Shown one piece after another: positions 24,537-29,478 of a stretch of 64,000 bases of DNA (within the stretch, counting starts at the first letter, position 1; each line of letters starts with the position of its first letter). This DNA is from Salinigranum halophilum (GTDB lineage: Archaea; Halobacteriota; Halobacteria; Halobacteriales; Haloferacaceae): the NCBI RefSeq assembly GCF_007004735.1, contig NZ_SSNL01000003.1, positions 1-64,000 on the forward strand, given 5' to 3'. The notes under the pieces were generated by a model. It was not told where the DNA came from and did no database searches. It worked only from the letters and a program-made list of their open reading frames with translations. The position numbers were made by a program, and so were the translations under genes.

Positions 24537-24893
24537 ATGGTCTCTCTCGACACGGACTCGTTGACGACGCTCCACTGGGTCGGTATCGCACTCGCGGCGG
24601 TGTCGGCGGTCGTTCACCTCGTCCTCGGTGTGCGCTTCTTACCGGGCGCGTTCGGCATCTCGTTCCTCGTCGCCACGGTGGGATTCGCCGTCGGCATCGG
24701 CGCTGTCCTCGTGAACTACCGACGGCGGCTGTTCTACCTCGTCGGCGTTCCGTTCACCGCGGGTCAGGTCGTCATCTTCGCGGTCACCGTCGTCCAGGGC
24801 ATCAACGAACTCGGTCCCATCGCCATCGTCGACAAGGCCGCACAGGTCGGCCTCGTCGCCGTCCTCGTCGTGTTGCTCCGCCGCGGCGGCTGA
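24537..24893 (+). CDS. Small haloarchaeal membrane protein
   Basis: Protein of 118 residues with four hydrophobic segments (about 14-34, 40-58, 66-86 and 92-112) and a charged loop NYRRRLFY. It is preceded by a TATA-like GCTTTATTG about 27 bases upstream, giving a leaderless transcript separate from the sulfur operon. No motif was recognised and the function is unknown. Confidence 0.75.
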   Translation: MVSLDTDSLTTLHWVGIALAAVSAVVHLVLGVRFLPGAFGISFLVATVGFAVGIGAVLVNYRRRLFYLVGVPFTAGQVVIFAVTVVQGINELGPIAIVDKAAQVGLVAVLVVLLRRGG

Positions 24894-24899
24894 GCAGCG

Positions 24900-25454
24900 A
24901 TGATGGTCACCTCCCACGCCGTCGTCGGCGTCGCGCTCACGGCACCACTCCTGGTCGTCGCCCCGGAACTCGCCCCGGTCGCCGCGCTCGCGGGTTTCCT
25001 CGGCGGCGTCTTTCCCGACCTCGACCTCCTCGTGGGGACCCACCGGAAGACGCTCCACTTCCCCCTCGTCGGCTGGCTCGTCGCGCTCCCCGCCCTCGTC
25101 GCCGCCGCCCTGGTCCAGACACCGGCGACGGTCGTCGTCGCGGCGTTCGCCGTCGCAGCCGCGGTCCACGCCGGGATGGACGCTCTCGGCGCTGGCGAGG
25201 AACTCCGGCCCTGGGAGCGGACCAACCCGTACGCCGTGTATCTCCACCCGCGCGGGCGGTGGCTGCGCGCGCGATACTGGGTGCCGTACGACGGCTCCCC
25301 GCACGACCTGGCGGTGACGCTCGTCGGCGCACTCCCGGGCCTGCTGTTCTTCTCCGGCACTGTCCGCCTGCTCTGTGCGCTCGCCGTCGCCGTCGCCGCC
25401 CCGTACACGCTGGTGCGCAAACGGCTGCCGCCGTACTTCGAGCGTATCGTCTGA
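24900..25454 (+). CDS. Membrane-bound metal-dependent hydrolase, YdjM-like
   Basis: Protein of 184 residues with several hydrophobic helices and the signature of the YdjM/LexA-regulated inner-membrane hydrolase group: MVTSHAVVGVAL (early His), GGVFPDLDLLVGTHRKTLHFP (Asp/His-rich) and a later HAGMDALG. It begins 6 bases after the preceding membrane protein, with tandem ATG codons at 24900 and 24903. The substrate is unknown. The conserved His/Asp set suggests a metal site facing the membrane. Confidence 0.8.
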   Translation: MMVTSHAVVGVALTAPLLVVAPELAPVAALAGFLGGVFPDLDLLVGTHRKTLHFPLVGWLVALPALVAAALVQTPATVVVAAFAVAAAVHAGMDALGAGEELRPWERTNPYAVYLHPRGRWLRARYWVPYDGSPHDLAVTLVGALPGLLFFSGTVRLLCALAVAVAAPYTLVRKRLPPYFERIV

Positions 25455-25567
25455 TTCCGACGCTCGACGGCTTCCCGCGATACGTCTCGCGCCCACGACA
25501 GCTTTACACCGGACGCCTCCTACGGTCCGCTTATGCACGGGACGACGCGGTGGTCGGGGGTCACGCG

Positions 25568-26611
25568 ATGACCGCCGAGAGCGAAGCGGAGGTTGGACCC
25601 AGCGGCGAGAGCGCGGCCCGACAGGTGCGGTTCGTCGCGCCGCGCCGCGTCGAGGTGACGCGCCACCCCGTCGCGACCCCCGAACCGGACGAGGTGCAGG
25701 TCGAAGCGTCGCTCTCGGCCATCAGCCCCGGCACGGAACTGCTCGTCTACCGCGACCAGGTCCCCGAGAACCTCCAGCTCGACGAGAACATCGACGAACT
25801 CGGACACGCCGCGACCTATCCGTTCTCGTACGGGTACGCCACCGTTGGGACCGTCACCGCCGCCGGTGACGACGTCACCGACGACTGGGTCGGTCGGCGC
25901 GTCTTCGCCTTCCACCCCCACGCCAGCCACTTCTGTGTCCACCCGGACACGCTCGTTCGCCTCCCCTCGGACGTCGCCGACGAGGACGCGGCCCTCCTCG
26001 CGATGGTCGAGACGGCGGTGAGCCTCGTCATGGACGGCCGCCCTCGGGTCGGCGAGCGCGCCGCGGTGTTCGGACAGGGGGTCGTCGGCCTCCTCACCAC
26101 AGCGCTCCTCGCGCGTCACCCCCTCTCGCGGCTCGTCACGTTCGACCACTACACCGCCCGCCGGGAACGCTCGCTGTCGTTCGGGGCCGACGCCTCGCTC
26201 GAACCCGACGTCGCCGGCGAGGTGTTCGACGCTGGCGACGGCCGCGCCGACGTCTCGTTCGAGGTCTCCGGGAACCCCGCGGCCCTCGACTCGGCAATCG
26301 ACACCACCGGCGACGACGGCCGAGTCATCATCGGCTCGTGGTACGGCGCGAAACCGGCCGCGCTCGACCTCGGCGGTCGGTTCCACCGGAGTCGCATCCG
26401 GCTACAGGCCAGTCAGGTCTCACGCATCGACTCGTCGCACGCGGGACGCTGGGACAAACAGCGGCGCATGGACCTCGCCTGTGACCTCCTCTCGGACCTC
26501 GAACCCTCGCGGCTGGTGACACACCGGGTCCCCATCGAGAACGCGGCCGACGCCTATCGGCTACTGGACGAATCGCCCGACGAGGCGCTGCAGGTCCTCC
26601 TGGAGTACTGA
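25568..26611 (+). CDS. BchC-like medium-chain dehydrogenase
   Basis: MDR-family dehydrogenase of 347 residues, ATG at 25568. The NAD(P) fold is marked by VFGQGVVGLLTTALL, and VSFEVSGNPAALDSAI is the typical downstream strand. The N-terminal part has AISPGTELLVYRDQVP instead of the zinc-ligand CGTD, and the GHE motif is replaced by YGYATVG. It therefore resembles bacteriochlorophyllide dehydrogenase BchC and related non-canonical members. First gene of a tight cluster with a pterin-synthase-like gene, a glycosyltransferase and a methyltransferase, so its substrate probably belongs to that pathway. Confidence 0.85.
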   Translation: MTAESEAEVGPSGESAARQVRFVAPRRVEVTRHPVATPEPDEVQVEASLSAISPGTELLVYRDQVPENLQLDENIDELGHAATYPFSYGYATVGTVTAAGDDVTDDWVGRRVFAFHPHASHFCVHPDTLVRLPSDVADEDAALLAMVETAVSLVMDGRPRVGERAAVFGQGVVGLLTTALLARHPLSRLVTFDHYTARRERSLSFGADASLEPDVAGEVFDAGDGRADVSFEVSGNPAALDSAIDTTGDDGRVIIGSWYGAKPAALDLGGRFHRSRIRLQASQVSRIDSSHAGRWDKQRRMDLACDLLSDLEPSRLVTHRVPIENAADAYRLLDESPDEALQVLLEY

Positions 26612-26659
26612 CTCCCACAGAACGCACCTTTACAACCGTCGCCCCCGGACACCCACGGC

Positions 26660-27040
26660 ATGTACACCGTCACCGTCGTCCGTCCCCTCATCGCCCAGCA
26701 CTTTCTCACCGTGCCGAACCCCGGCCCCGAGGGTGACCTCCACTCGCACCACTTCCGCCTGGAGGTCGAACTCGCGGGCGAGGAGTTGAACGAGTACGAC
26801 TATCTCGTCGACATCGACGAGGTAGAGGCCGCCCTCGACGCCGTCGAAGCACGGTACTCGGACGAGACGCTCAACGACCTCCCCGAGTTCGAGGGGTACA
26901 ACCCGAGCGTCGAGCGCTTCGCCCGGGTCGTCCACGAGCACATCTCGGACGAGGTCACGACCGACGGCGTCGAGCGCCTCACCGTCACCGTGTGGGAGGA
27001 CGACGTCGCCAACGCCGCCTACGCCGCCCCACCCGCGTAG
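26660..27040 (+). CDS. 6-pyruvoyl-tetrahydropterin synthase-like (COG0720) protein with altered active site
   Basis: Protein of 126 residues of the PTPS/QueD fold. Zinc ligands H14, H28 and H30 are kept (LHSHHF), and the substrate-anchoring glutamate E113 (VTVWEDD) is present. The catalytic cysteine four residues before the HxH is E24 instead, and the Asp-His pair of the LDHxxLN motif reads SDETLN (67-72). So the standard QueD or PTPS reaction is unlikely as such. A glutamate in that position is known in PTPS-III-type folate enzymes. The stop codon abuts the next start, so it belongs to one operon with its neighbours. Confidence 0.85.
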   Translation: MYTVTVVRPLIAQHFLTVPNPGPEGDLHSHHFRLEVELAGEELNEYDYLVDIDEVEAALDAVEARYSDETLNDLPEFEGYNPSVERFARVVHEHISDEVTTDGVERLTVTVWEDDVANAAYAAPPA

Positions 27041-28135
27041 ATGCGGGTCGCCTTCGTCGCGCCCGGCGACTTCGAGACGACCTCCGGCGGGTTTCGCTAC
27101 GACCGCCGCCTCGTCGCCTCCCTTCGGGAGACGGACGACGTGAGCGTCTACTCGGTCCCCTGGCGGCGCTACCCCCGCTCGCTCGTCGACGCGCCCACAA
27201 CGCCCCTCTCGCGGTTTTCGACTGATGCCGACGTCGTCGTCGTCGACGAACTCGCGCATCCGACGTTCGCGGTGCGGTGTGCGGGGGTACGGGGGGACCA
27301 CACGCCCGTCGTCGCGCTCGTCCATCACCTCCGGTGTGACGAGCGTGGCCCCGAGGCTCCCCTCGCTCGCGAACTCGAACGCCGGTTTCTCGGCCGCGTC
27401 GACGCCGCGGTCTGCACGAGTTCGGCGACCGACGCGGCGGTCCGGGACCTCGCCCCCGACCCCGCGCTCCCGACACTCGTCGCCCCGCCGACCGCCGACC
27501 AGTTCGACCCCGACGTCTCACCGACAGCCGTCGACGACCGCGCCACCGAGTCCCCGTTCCGCGTCGTCTTCCTCGGCTCGCTCGTCCCACGGAAGCGCCC
27601 GCTCGCACTCGTCGACGCGCTCGCGGCCCTCGAGGTGCCCTGGGAGGCGACGTTCGTCGGCCCGCAACCGAACGAACGGTACGCCTCGCGGGTTCGAAGC
27701 CGGTGTCGTCGCCGCGGTGTCGCCGACAGCGTCGCCCTCGCAGGGCCGCTCTCGACCGCGGAACTCGCCGCGGTGCTTCGCAACGGCCACGTCCTCGCAC
27801 TCCCCTCCCGGCACGAGGGCTTCGGCATCGCCGCGCTCGAAGGGATGGGGTTCGGGCTCCCCGCCGTGGTGACGCAGTCGGGCGGTGCGACGGACCTCGT
27901 CACGCACGGCGAGAACGGCTTCCTCGTCCCGCCCGACGGCGTCGGTGCGGTCTACGCGGCGCTGTCGGCGCTCGCGACTGACCGCACACGGCTCGCCCGG
28001 ATGGGCCGAGCGGCGCTGACGCGGTACCGCTCGCATCCCCCGTGGCCGGAGACCGCCGCACGGACCCGGACGTTCCTCGCTCGGGTCGCGTCCGACCCGT
28101 CCAGTGCTGCCGAGCCGCCGCTGGAGGCGACGTGA
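27041..28135 (+). CDS. Glycosyltransferase family 4
   Basis: GT-B glycosyltransferase of 364 residues. The N-terminal strand RVAFVAPGDFETTSGGFRYD, the inter-domain FLGSLVPRKRPLALVDAL, and the donor-binding SRHEGFGIAALEGMGFGLPA (E-x7-E) identify GT4, which uses NDP-sugars with retention. It starts directly at the end of the PTPS-like gene (TAG then ATG), and its own stop overlaps the GTG start of the methyltransferase. The acceptor is unknown. The neighbours suggest a pterin-like small molecule, while a lipid or glycan acceptor cannot be excluded. Confidence 0.9.
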   Translation: MRVAFVAPGDFETTSGGFRYDRRLVASLRETDDVSVYSVPWRRYPRSLVDAPTTPLSRFSTDADVVVVDELAHPTFAVRCAGVRGDHTPVVALVHHLRCDERGPEAPLARELERRFLGRVDAAVCTSSATDAAVRDLAPDPALPTLVAPPTADQFDPDVSPTAVDDRATESPFRVVFLGSLVPRKRPLALVDALAALEVPWEATFVGPQPNERYASRVRSRCRRRGVADSVALAGPLSTAELAAVLRNGHVLALPSRHEGFGIAALEGMGFGLPAVVTQSGGATDLVTHGENGFLVPPDGVGAVYAALSALATDRTRLARMGRAALTRYRSHPPWPETAARTRTFLARVASDPSSAAEPPLEAT

Positions 28136-29055
28136 AGGGTGACTTCGAGCGGTACCTCTCGGCGAAGGCGACCGTCGACGACCGCGCGCTCGACCGGGAC
28201 GTCCTCGGTCGGTTCCGCGCCGACCTCCGTGGGCGCGCCGACCCGCACATTCTCGAGGCCGGCGCGGGAACCGCCGCGTTCTGCCGGCGGTTCCTCTCGT
28301 GGGACGACCGCCCCGACTGCACCTACGTCGCCGTCGACACCGACCCCGCGCTCTTGACGACGGCTCGCGCGGAGATTCTCGACACCGCCCGCGCGATGGG
28401 GTTCGAGGCCGTGCTCGTCGACCCGGCGGAGCCCGGGTTCGACGTCGACATCGCCGGCGGTACGCCCGTCGCGACGATTCGGCTCTCGGGTCCCGCACAC
28501 GTCGACGTCCACCTCGTCACCGGCGACGCGCTGACCGTCGCCTCCCGGGGGCGATGGGACGCGCTCGTCGCCCAGGCGTTCGTCGACCTCCTCTCGCCCG
28601 CCGACGTCGAGCGACTCGTGAGCGGCGTCGCCGCCGACGGCCTCGTCTACTTCCCCATCACCTTCGACGGCGGCACCGCCTTCGCTCCCCCCCACCCGGC
28701 CGACGACGCTGTCCTCGACGCGTACCACGCGACGATGGTCGGAGCCGACGGCCACAGGCTCGGCGCGCGCGCCGGCCGGCGACTGCGCACGCTGCTTCCC
28801 GACCTCGGCGTCGACCTCGTCGCCGTCGGCGACGCCGACTGGACCGTCGACCCCACAGCGGACGGCTACCCCGCCGACGAGGCGTACTTCCTCGACGTCG
28901 TCGTCGACACCGTCGCCGACGCGGTCCGTGGCCGTGTTCCGGACGAGACGGTCGACGCGTGGCTCGCGGCACGAAGCGAACAGCGAAAAGCGGGCGAACT
29001 CGGGTTCGTCGCGCGGAACCTCGACCTGTACGGGCGCCGGAGGGAACGCGAGTGA
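28132..29055 (+). CDS. SAM-dependent methyltransferase (class I)
   Basis: Protein of 307 residues with GTG start at 28132, overlapping the previous stop by four bases (GTGA). SAM-binding motif I is HILEAGAGTAAFCRRFL, and motif II YVAVDTDPALL follows. A later VAQAFVDLLSPADVERLVSGV is the usual post-motif region. An alternative upstream start at 28042 would overlap the glycosyltransferase by 94 bases and is disfavoured. It is the last gene of the dehydrogenase/PTPS-like/GT4/methyltransferase cluster. The target atom cannot be read. Confidence 0.88.
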   Translation: MKGDFERYLSAKATVDDRALDRDVLGRFRADLRGRADPHILEAGAGTAAFCRRFLSWDDRPDCTYVAVDTDPALLTTARAEILDTARAMGFEAVLVDPAEPGFDVDIAGGTPVATIRLSGPAHVDVHLVTGDALTVASRGRWDALVAQAFVDLLSPADVERLVSGVAADGLVYFPITFDGGTAFAPPHPADDAVLDAYHATMVGADGHRLGARAGRRLRTLLPDLGVDLVAVGDADWTVDPTADGYPADEAYFLDVVVDTVADAVRGRVPDETVDAWLAARSEQRKAGELGFVARNLDLYGRRRERE

Positions 29056-29058
29056 CGG

Positions 29059-29478
29059 TCAGTCTTCGGTCGTCGTGTGGTCGATTTCGAGTTCGCCCGT
29101 GTGGATACGAGCGCCGTCCTGAGCGACCTGGCGCGCGAGGACGGCGCATTTGATACGCATCGGGCTGATGTCGACGCCGAGCATCTCCGTGACGTCGTCG
29201 GTGTCTAACTCCTCGAGTTCGTCGAGCGTCATCCCCTGGAGCTTCGAGGTGAGCATCGACGCCGACGCCTGCGAGATGGCGCAGCCGTCGCCGCTGAAGG
29301 CCGCGTACTCGATAGTCTCGCCGTCGTCTGCCAACTGGACGTCGACGCGGATGGTGTCGCCACACGAGGGGTTCTCACCCTCGTGAGTGAACGTCGGGTC
29401 CTCGAGTTCCCCGTAGTTCCGGGGGTTCTTGTAGTGGTCGAGGATCTGCTGCCGGTACATGTCCGAACCCAGGCCCAT
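29059..29478 (-). CDS. sufU: Iron-sulfur cluster assembly scaffold SufU/IscU-like
   Basis: Scaffold protein of 139 residues. The three cysteine ligands are C39 (NPSCGDTI), C66 (GDGCAISQASASML) and C111 (RIKCAVLARQ), with Asp D41 following the first. Spacing between the first two cysteines, with the extra residues typical of SufU, supports that subgroup, which either carries Fe-S clusters or acts as a zinc-dependent sulfurtransferase for SufS. It converges on the methyltransferase gene with only a 3-base gap. The SufS-like gene is 3.2 kb away on the same strand rather than adjacent. Confidence 0.92.
   Translation of the reverse strand: MGLGSDMYRQQILDHYKNPRNYGELEDPTFTHEGENPSCGDTIRVDVQLADDGETIEYAAFSGDGCAISQASASMLTSKLQGMTLDELEELDTDDVTEMLGVDISPMRIKCAVLARQVAQDGARIHTGELEIDHTTTED

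Follow-up and report, generated by a model that had tools for sequence, protein, structure and literature searches.

A conserved gene module around a divergent COG0720 protein in haloarchaea and bacteria, and a possible pathway from GTP to a pterin-like compound

The window analysed here is a stretch of 64,000 nucleotides from Salinigranum halophilum (contig NZ_SSNL01000003.1, positions 1 to 64,000), and lies on contig C2, in our numbering, of a genome of 4.2 Mb. At 25568-29055 it carries a cluster of four open reading frames on the plus strand, encoding a dehydrogenase, a member of COG0720 related to 6-pyruvoyltetrahydropterin synthase (PTPS), a glycosyltransferase of family GT4 and a methyltransferase. 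The comparisons described below support the view that the dehydrogenase, the PTPS-like protein and the methyltransferase, usually together with GT4, form one functional module. The module, its co-occurrence across genomes, its linkage to ring-opening GTP cyclohydrolases, and the loss of both the PTPS triad and the dehydrogenase zinc site are computed results. We hypothesise that the cluster is a dedicated accessory pathway leading from ring-opened GTP to a methylated and usually glycosylated pterin-like compound, a reading to which we give roughly an even chance. The four genes are as follows.

25568-26611, plus strand: BchC-like dehydrogenase of the medium-chain dehydrogenase/reductase (MDR) type (ADH_zinc_N in Pfam; BchC-like by NCBIfam)
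26660-27040, plus strand: PTPS-like (COG0720) T-fold protein (Pfam PTPS, E 1.8e-25)
27041-28135, plus strand: GT4 glycosyltransferase, GT-B with EX7E (Glycos_transf_1, PF00534, E 3.8e-26)
28132-29055, plus strand: class I S-adenosylmethionine (SAM)-dependent methyltransferase (weak Methyltransf_25; GTG start)

An earlier note on this DNA, made by a model from the letters and a list of open reading frames, had described the arrangement correctly. The last three genes are joined, with the PTPS stop codon (27038-27040) abutting the GT4 ATG at 27041 (gap of 0), and the GT4 stop TGA sharing 4 bases with the GTG start of the methyltransferase. Its family assignments agree with Pfam and NCBIfam, the methyltransferase being weak by sequence and confirmed by its structural model. 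For the dehydrogenase, translation could alternatively begin at an in-frame GTG at 25550.

Co-occurrence and gene order

Co-occurrence was followed in a sample of 243 genomes of the order. Of these, 133 (about 55%) contain the PTPS-like gene, 129 the dehydrogenase and 127 the methyltransferase, with all three present in 125. The dehydrogenase and methyltransferase sets are strictly nested within the PTPS-positive genomes (Fisher p ~1e-65 and ~1e-62 respectively, with the relatedness of the genomes ignored), and a check of co-occurrence proposed earlier thus comes out in favour of a common function. The association also holds for unlinked genes, located on other contigs or far apart (G029, G040, G068, G092, G202, G210, G234, G235).

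Within 7 kb, 50 loci in named genomes contain a dehydrogenase in 45 cases, a GT4 in 44 and a methyltransferase in 46, and 36 of them contain all of these. GT4 is absent from otherwise intact modules in Haloquadratum, Halobellus and some Bacteroidota (L062, L063, L142, L065, L128, L136), and the core is therefore dehydrogenase, PTPS-like protein and methyltransferase. The same gene order is seen in haloarchaea, in Rhodothermaceae/Salinibacter-like Bacteroidota and in Chloroflexota, and because it is kept in both haloarchaea and bacteria, the arrangement goes far beyond chance. Roughly half of the haloarchaeal genomes in the sample retain the gene set, as do Salinibacter-like bacteria and many Chloroflexota.

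The PTPS-like protein and its partners

An alignment with 28 relatives has H14, E24, H28, S29, H30, D68 and E113 invariant. The characteristic motif is AQHxLTVPxxGPE(G/N)xxHSH, and E24, D68 and E113 are conserved among the archaeal members. In the alignment, E24 corresponds to Cys27 of E. coli QueD; it is located four residues before the first His of HxH (ExxxHSH), while the QueD Asp-His pair is replaced by x-Asp68; the Cys-Asp-His triad is gone, and E24-x67-D68 stands in its place. The earlier note had recognised both changes. It had also listed H14, H28 and H30 as retained zinc ligands together with E113, which is true of the 28 aligned relatives, but most Chloroflexota members have Asn in place of H28 (and Glu in place of D68), and the zinc site is therefore not universal. 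The invariance of E24, E113 and the metal ligands among the aligned relatives suggests catalysis. The position of E113 is the base anchor of T-fold enzymes, which suggests that the substrate keeps a 2-amino-4-oxo edge, consistent with clusters that contain no deaminase.

The AlphaFold model of the protein (pLDDT 95.7) has a T-fold, and the closest structures to it are SCO6650 (3D7J; Z 18.0, 30% identity) followed by QueD (Z 16.2). In a tree of 54 sequences, an analysis that had also been suggested earlier, the PTPS-like type forms a single clade (support 100/99), apart from the PTPS-IV-like FGPA sequences (98/93), from CExxHGH sequences and from the genome's own QueD copies. It is thus a distinct and strongly supported clade of COG0720.

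Comparison with the published signature motifs of the PTPS subgroups (PMC5041015, PMC5445326) leads to the same separation. The protein shares with QueD (PTPS-I) the T-fold, the metal ligands H14/H28/H30 and the E113 anchor, but it has Glu for Cys, no Asp-His pair and no linkage to QueC or QueE, neither of which is among the recurrent neighbours of genes of this type. The genome contains three COG0720 genes including this one; the other two have CxxxHGH, and each sits with QueE and QueC. An identity as QueD/PTPS-I was therefore rejected, on the basis of ExxxHSH rather than CxxxHGH, the lost triad and the two true QueD-QueE-QueC sets elsewhere, in agreement with the earlier expectation that this is not a normal QueD. 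Against NCBIfam TIGR03367 (cut-off 89.25 bits) the PTPS-like protein scores 45.8, and the genome's genuine QueD is also below the cut-off, at 78.9. The PTPS-II motif CxxxxxHGH is not present in the protein. PTPS-III likewise has a Glu near the Cys position, but its motif is ExxHGH (Glu at -3) with an Asp-His pair, whereas the window protein has ExxxHSH (Glu at -4) and no pair; the analogy with PTPS-III that had been drawn is off by one residue.

PTPS-IV is the subgroup of SCO6650, the nearest solved structure. It has an FGPAQ signature, whereas the window type, GPE(G/N)xxHSH, keeps the HxH metal ligands and falls in its own supported clade. AGeNNT found PF00925 (GTP cyclohydrolase II) and PF01872 (RibD_C) in PTPS-IV neighbourhoods (PMC5445326); this combination occurs in the bacterial relatives of the window protein, while haloarchaea have GTP cyclohydrolase III instead, or have these genes unlinked. 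Genes of the FGPA (PTPS-IV-like) type in Chloroflexota also adjoin RibD_C, dehydrogenase and GT4 genes (L125, L126, L127, L138), and L127 (7034-7795 and 10329-12671) has two PTPS-GT4 pairs of this type with one other gene between them. The structure of SCO6650 was reportedly solved in 2008, and the protein is reported to have neither zinc nor the triad and to show no PTPS activity; to our knowledge it has been assigned no function so far. The pathway proposed below would also offer a context in which to interpret the function of PTPS-IV proteins, SCO6650 among them.

In public records the key protein is named as a queuosine enzyme and its partners have generic names. The NCBI label for close relatives is '6-carboxytetrahydropterin synthase', with a queuosine Gene Ontology term. 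Misleading labels are also found in the haloarchaeal plasmids L140, L141 and L142, where, besides a queuosine-type name, a dehydrogenase devoid of zinc ligands is labelled 'zinc-binding alcohol dehydrogenase'. Some copies of the PTPS-like gene appear damaged: in Haloarcula marismortui (NZ_CP039137.1, 232705-233048; NC_006395.1, 104289-104632) the match is in two unannotated pieces and looks broken, and a copy in G201 has an internal TGA. As regards the genuine QueD genes of the present genome, the second preQ0 operon (L133, 4878-11502; G000:C5, approximately 260777-267401) consists of QueD, QueE, the GTP cyclohydrolase I FolE and QueC. It faces a gene for a 1175-residue DpdA protein (NCBIfam NF041059, 254 bits against a cut-off of 200), and the two are likely to make up a 7-deazaguanine DNA-modification island.

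The dehydrogenase lacks all three catalytic zinc ligands. The Cys is replaced by an invariant S53 and the GHE by G89-Y90-A91, and there is no invariant Cys; judged by the Cys, His and Glu ligands, it is not a zinc-dependent alcohol dehydrogenase. The BchC model TIGR01202 is its best NCBIfam match, yet at 76.5 bits is under the cut-off of 291. Its relatives in the PDB include butanediol, sorbitol and ketose reductases, and we propose that it oxidises or reduces a secondary alcohol of a side chain. In GT4 the EX7E residues E259 and E267 are invariant. The GT4 profile matches tetrahydrobiopterin glucosyltransferases (BGluT) with E 3e-22, and sucrose-phosphate-synthase-like and MshA-type entries score better. 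The AlphaFold model of the methyltransferase (pLDDT 94.4) has the class I fold, with Z 20.4 to 3MGG, and G44 and G46 of the GxG motif are invariant, in keeping with a class I SAM enzyme; its structural matches in the PDB name no substrate.

Linked GTP cyclohydrolases and a proposed pathway

The best hint as to the precursor is the recruitment of two unrelated GTP cyclohydrolases to the same module. GTP cyclohydrolases II and III are unrelated enzymes, both of which open GTP to riboflavin-type pyrimidines. In haloarchaea, GTP cyclohydrolase III (ArfA) accompanies the module at 14 of 51 loci, immediately upstream of the dehydrogenase in some (L046, L058, L059) and downstream of the methyltransferase in others (L037, L040, L041), and six of the nine genomes with a linked copy hold a second GTP cyclohydrolase III. 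In L055, L065, L075, L078, L079, L111, L128, L129 and L136 the dehydrogenase is preceded by GTP cyclohydrolase II, which is either fused with RibD_C or next to it; Bacteroidota-type loci have the fusion directly upstream, and some Chloroflexota have the two as separate genes there. A second GTP cyclohydrolase II is present in seven Bacteroidota-type genomes. The fused protein exceeds the cut-offs of both RibA and RibD_C; for its reductase portion, the archaeal diaminopyrimidine reductase model gives 138 bits (below that model's cut-off) and eubacterial RibD 111. Since both cyclohydrolases are linked to one module, the precursor is probably a ring-opened pyrimidine and not dihydroneopterin triphosphate, which had been assumed as the substrate before. 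That two unrelated enzymes point to a specific precursor makes the pathway directly testable.

The module thus shares its first enzymes with the start of archaeal riboflavin synthesis (ArfA/GTP cyclohydrolase III, ArfB, ArfC), and arfA adjoins it in Haloferax marinum (L059). In contrast, the PTPS-like protein, GT4 and methyltransferase have no role in riboflavin synthesis, and many genomes keep a second GTP cyclohydrolase III for the module. According to the account in PMC8305020, Phillips et al. (2012), in a paper on COG0720, made a Haloferax arfA deletion, and they probably saw the arfA linkage.

On the basis of these linkages and of the protein families, we infer the following chemical steps and product. 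The cluster would be the downstream half of a pathway whose first enzyme is linked in relatives. GTP would be opened by GTP cyclohydrolase III (II in bacteria), deformylation giving 2,5-diamino-6-ribosylamino-pyrimidinone 5'-phosphate, and a RibD_C/ArfC reductase would convert the ribosyl into a ribityl chain (2,5-diamino-6-ribitylamino-pyrimidinone phosphate). The BchC-like dehydrogenase may then oxidise the 2'-OH to a ketone, and attack on this ketone by the 5-amino group would form a dihydropterin ring. The route would be a detour through redox chemistry to the type of product that GTP cyclohydrolase I makes via an Amadori rearrangement. The PTPS-like enzyme might close the ring, or trim or isomerise the side chain, with E113 holding the 2-amino-4-oxo edge and E24/D68 and the metal replacing Cys-Asp-His. 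Methylation and then, usually, glycosylation would follow, as the families of the last two enzymes suggest. Redox ring closure as the specific mechanism is tentative and on balance unlikely. Rather unlikely, too, is the full scheme of a pterin route independent of GTP cyclohydrolase I and common to haloarchaea and bacteria, in which opening by GTP cyclohydrolase II or III, C1' reduction by RibD_C and C2' reoxidation by the BchC-like enzyme would be followed by a Glu/Asp-based PTPS relative, the methyltransferase and GT4, to give a new pterin product or cofactor.

FolE2/MptA is present in 240 of the 243 genomes, and the module is therefore accessory. For the same reason its interpretation as a replacement of the folate route was rejected. 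Gap-filling in riboflavin synthesis, with the PTPS-like protein as the missing ArfB or phosphatase, was also rejected, because riboflavin synthesis is general while only about 55% of genomes have the module, and because the ArfB and ArfC candidates in the literature are different genes (PMC8305020). A creatininase beside the module in a Haloarcula plasmid (L140) was considered as a linked ArfB, but it occurs at no other locus, its best NCBIfam match is MftE-like, and it was set aside as a chance neighbour.

Several observations weigh against the pathway to a pterin-like compound. Neither GTP cyclohydrolase III nor RibD_C is near the cluster here (the single GTP cyclohydrolase III of the genome is on contig C1, and the main RibD_C gene is also unlinked) or in many other haloarchaea, and several Chloroflexota clusters have no RibA/RibD_C within 7 kb. 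Dihydroneopterin is already obtainable via FolE2/MptA, and a second route needs a reason. Chloroflexota lose a zinc ligand (H28N), so that a single mechanism may not fit all members. Substrates cannot be predicted from sequence in families as large as those of the dehydrogenase and GT4, and the match of GT4 to pterin glucosyltransferases is no better than to unrelated GT4s.

Because the only linked upstream enzymes are of riboflavin type, it may be that no pterin ring is closed, and that the diaminopyrimidine itself is the substrate of the PTPS-like protein. The product would then branch off from riboflavin/F420 precursors, as a ribityl-pyrimidine, lumazine or deazaflavin-like compound that is methylated and glycosylated. 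This is a serious possibility, if an unlikely one. PTPS-IV, which occurs in similar clusters, is stated by Zallot et al., as unpublished work, to serve F420 synthesis (PMC5041015). However, the clusters have no linked deaminase, lumazine synthase or FO synthase, and the T-fold and E113 suit a 2-amino-4-oxo ring that is closed or in the course of closing. Moreover, F420 production is general among haloarchaea, and the module is not. Halobacterium and Halococcus make F420 (PMC8498797). The tetrahydrobiopterin glucoside pathway of cyanobacteria (GTP cyclohydrolase I, PTPS-II, sepiapterin reductase and BGluT) resembles the module in having a PTPS homologue and a GT-B enzyme related to BGluT. By analogy, the product of GTP cyclohydrolase I or FolE2 would enter, the PTPS-like protein and the dehydrogenase would act as PTPS-II and sepiapterin reductase, and GT4 and the methyltransferase would decorate the product. 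The relation of GT4 to BGluT and the FolE2/MptA count fit such a scheme, and solfapterin, a glycosylated neopterin of Sulfolobus reported in 1988 (as cited in PMC3546692), is proof that archaeal pterin glycosides exist. We nevertheless consider it improbable: the linked cyclohydrolases are III or II and not I, the PTPS-II motif and the Cys-Asp-His triad are absent, and several modules have no GT4. The module also differs from the cyanobacterial pathway in its dehydrogenase, which is of the MDR and not the short-chain (SDR) type, and in its extra methyltransferase.

It is very improbable that the PTPS-like protein is a non-catalytic binder or scaffold, with the dehydrogenase, GT4, methyltransferase, a CDP-alcohol phosphatidyltransferase and an aldo-keto reductase (AKR) making a sugar- or lipid-linked compound. 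The loss of the triad and the proximity to 3D7J would agree with this, SCO6650 being likewise suspected to be non-catalytic. So would two kinds of neighbour among the fetched loci: homologues of the CDP-alcohol phosphatidyltransferase, present at 29 loci (two of which are copies that overlap others), and MocA-AKR fusions, present at about 25. These genes are, however, absent beside the window's module and elsewhere are often divergently transcribed, and the aligned relatives show no variation at E24, E113 or the metal ligands, which suggests catalysis.

The proposal of a set of enzymes building a glycosylated, methylated pterin, made in the earlier note, thus stands as regards a single module and an aberrant COG0720 clade, but not as regards the assumed substrate, and the glycosyltransferase is dispensable in several lineages. 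Its statement that nothing of the kind is described in archaea needs qualifying, given solfapterin and the published PTPS-IV neighbourhoods with PF00925 and PF01872. A literature search on SCO6650, HVO_1282, halopterins and archaeal pterin glycosides found no paper on this cluster. The broad pattern of COG0720 with GTP cyclohydrolase II and RibD_C has published precedent; new are the distinct clade, the lost triad, the cross-domain module with a methyltransferase, the near-perfect co-occurrence and the paired recruitment of GTP cyclohydrolase II or III.

Other features and recurrent neighbours

Three further features lie upstream of or within the cluster.

24537-24893, plus strand: DUF7475 small membrane protein (Pfam PF24287, E 2.4e-10)
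24900-25454, plus strand: YdjM-like membrane protein (weak PF04307)
26630-26636, plus strand: TTTACAA, TATA-like element about 27 bases 5' of the PTPS start

The TTTACAA element, as read from the sequence, is a possible leaderless promoter candidate for the PTPS, GT4 and methyltransferase genes. DUF7475 is a recurrent companion of the module in haloarchaea, with homologues in about 28 fetched loci; in some Chloroflexota (L111, L113, L114, L120) it immediately precedes the dehydrogenase. The YdjM-like gene is upstream of the PTPS-like gene in L006, L019, L042, L048 and L051; it is a companion in Haloferacaceae loci only, and is a doubtful member of the module. Further recurrent companions are a sulfatase-like protein and, in Chloroflexota, a ComB-like phosphatase. 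Genes for a ClpS-like adaptor, AKRs, an acyltransferase and LPG_synthase_TM recur alongside Chloroflexota modules (L114, 2543-2920; L119; L121). Finally, a SufU gene at 29059-29478 of the window, on the minus strand, is convergent with the module, and its position is conserved in at least six Haloferacaceae loci (L034, L035, L038, L042, L048, L051).

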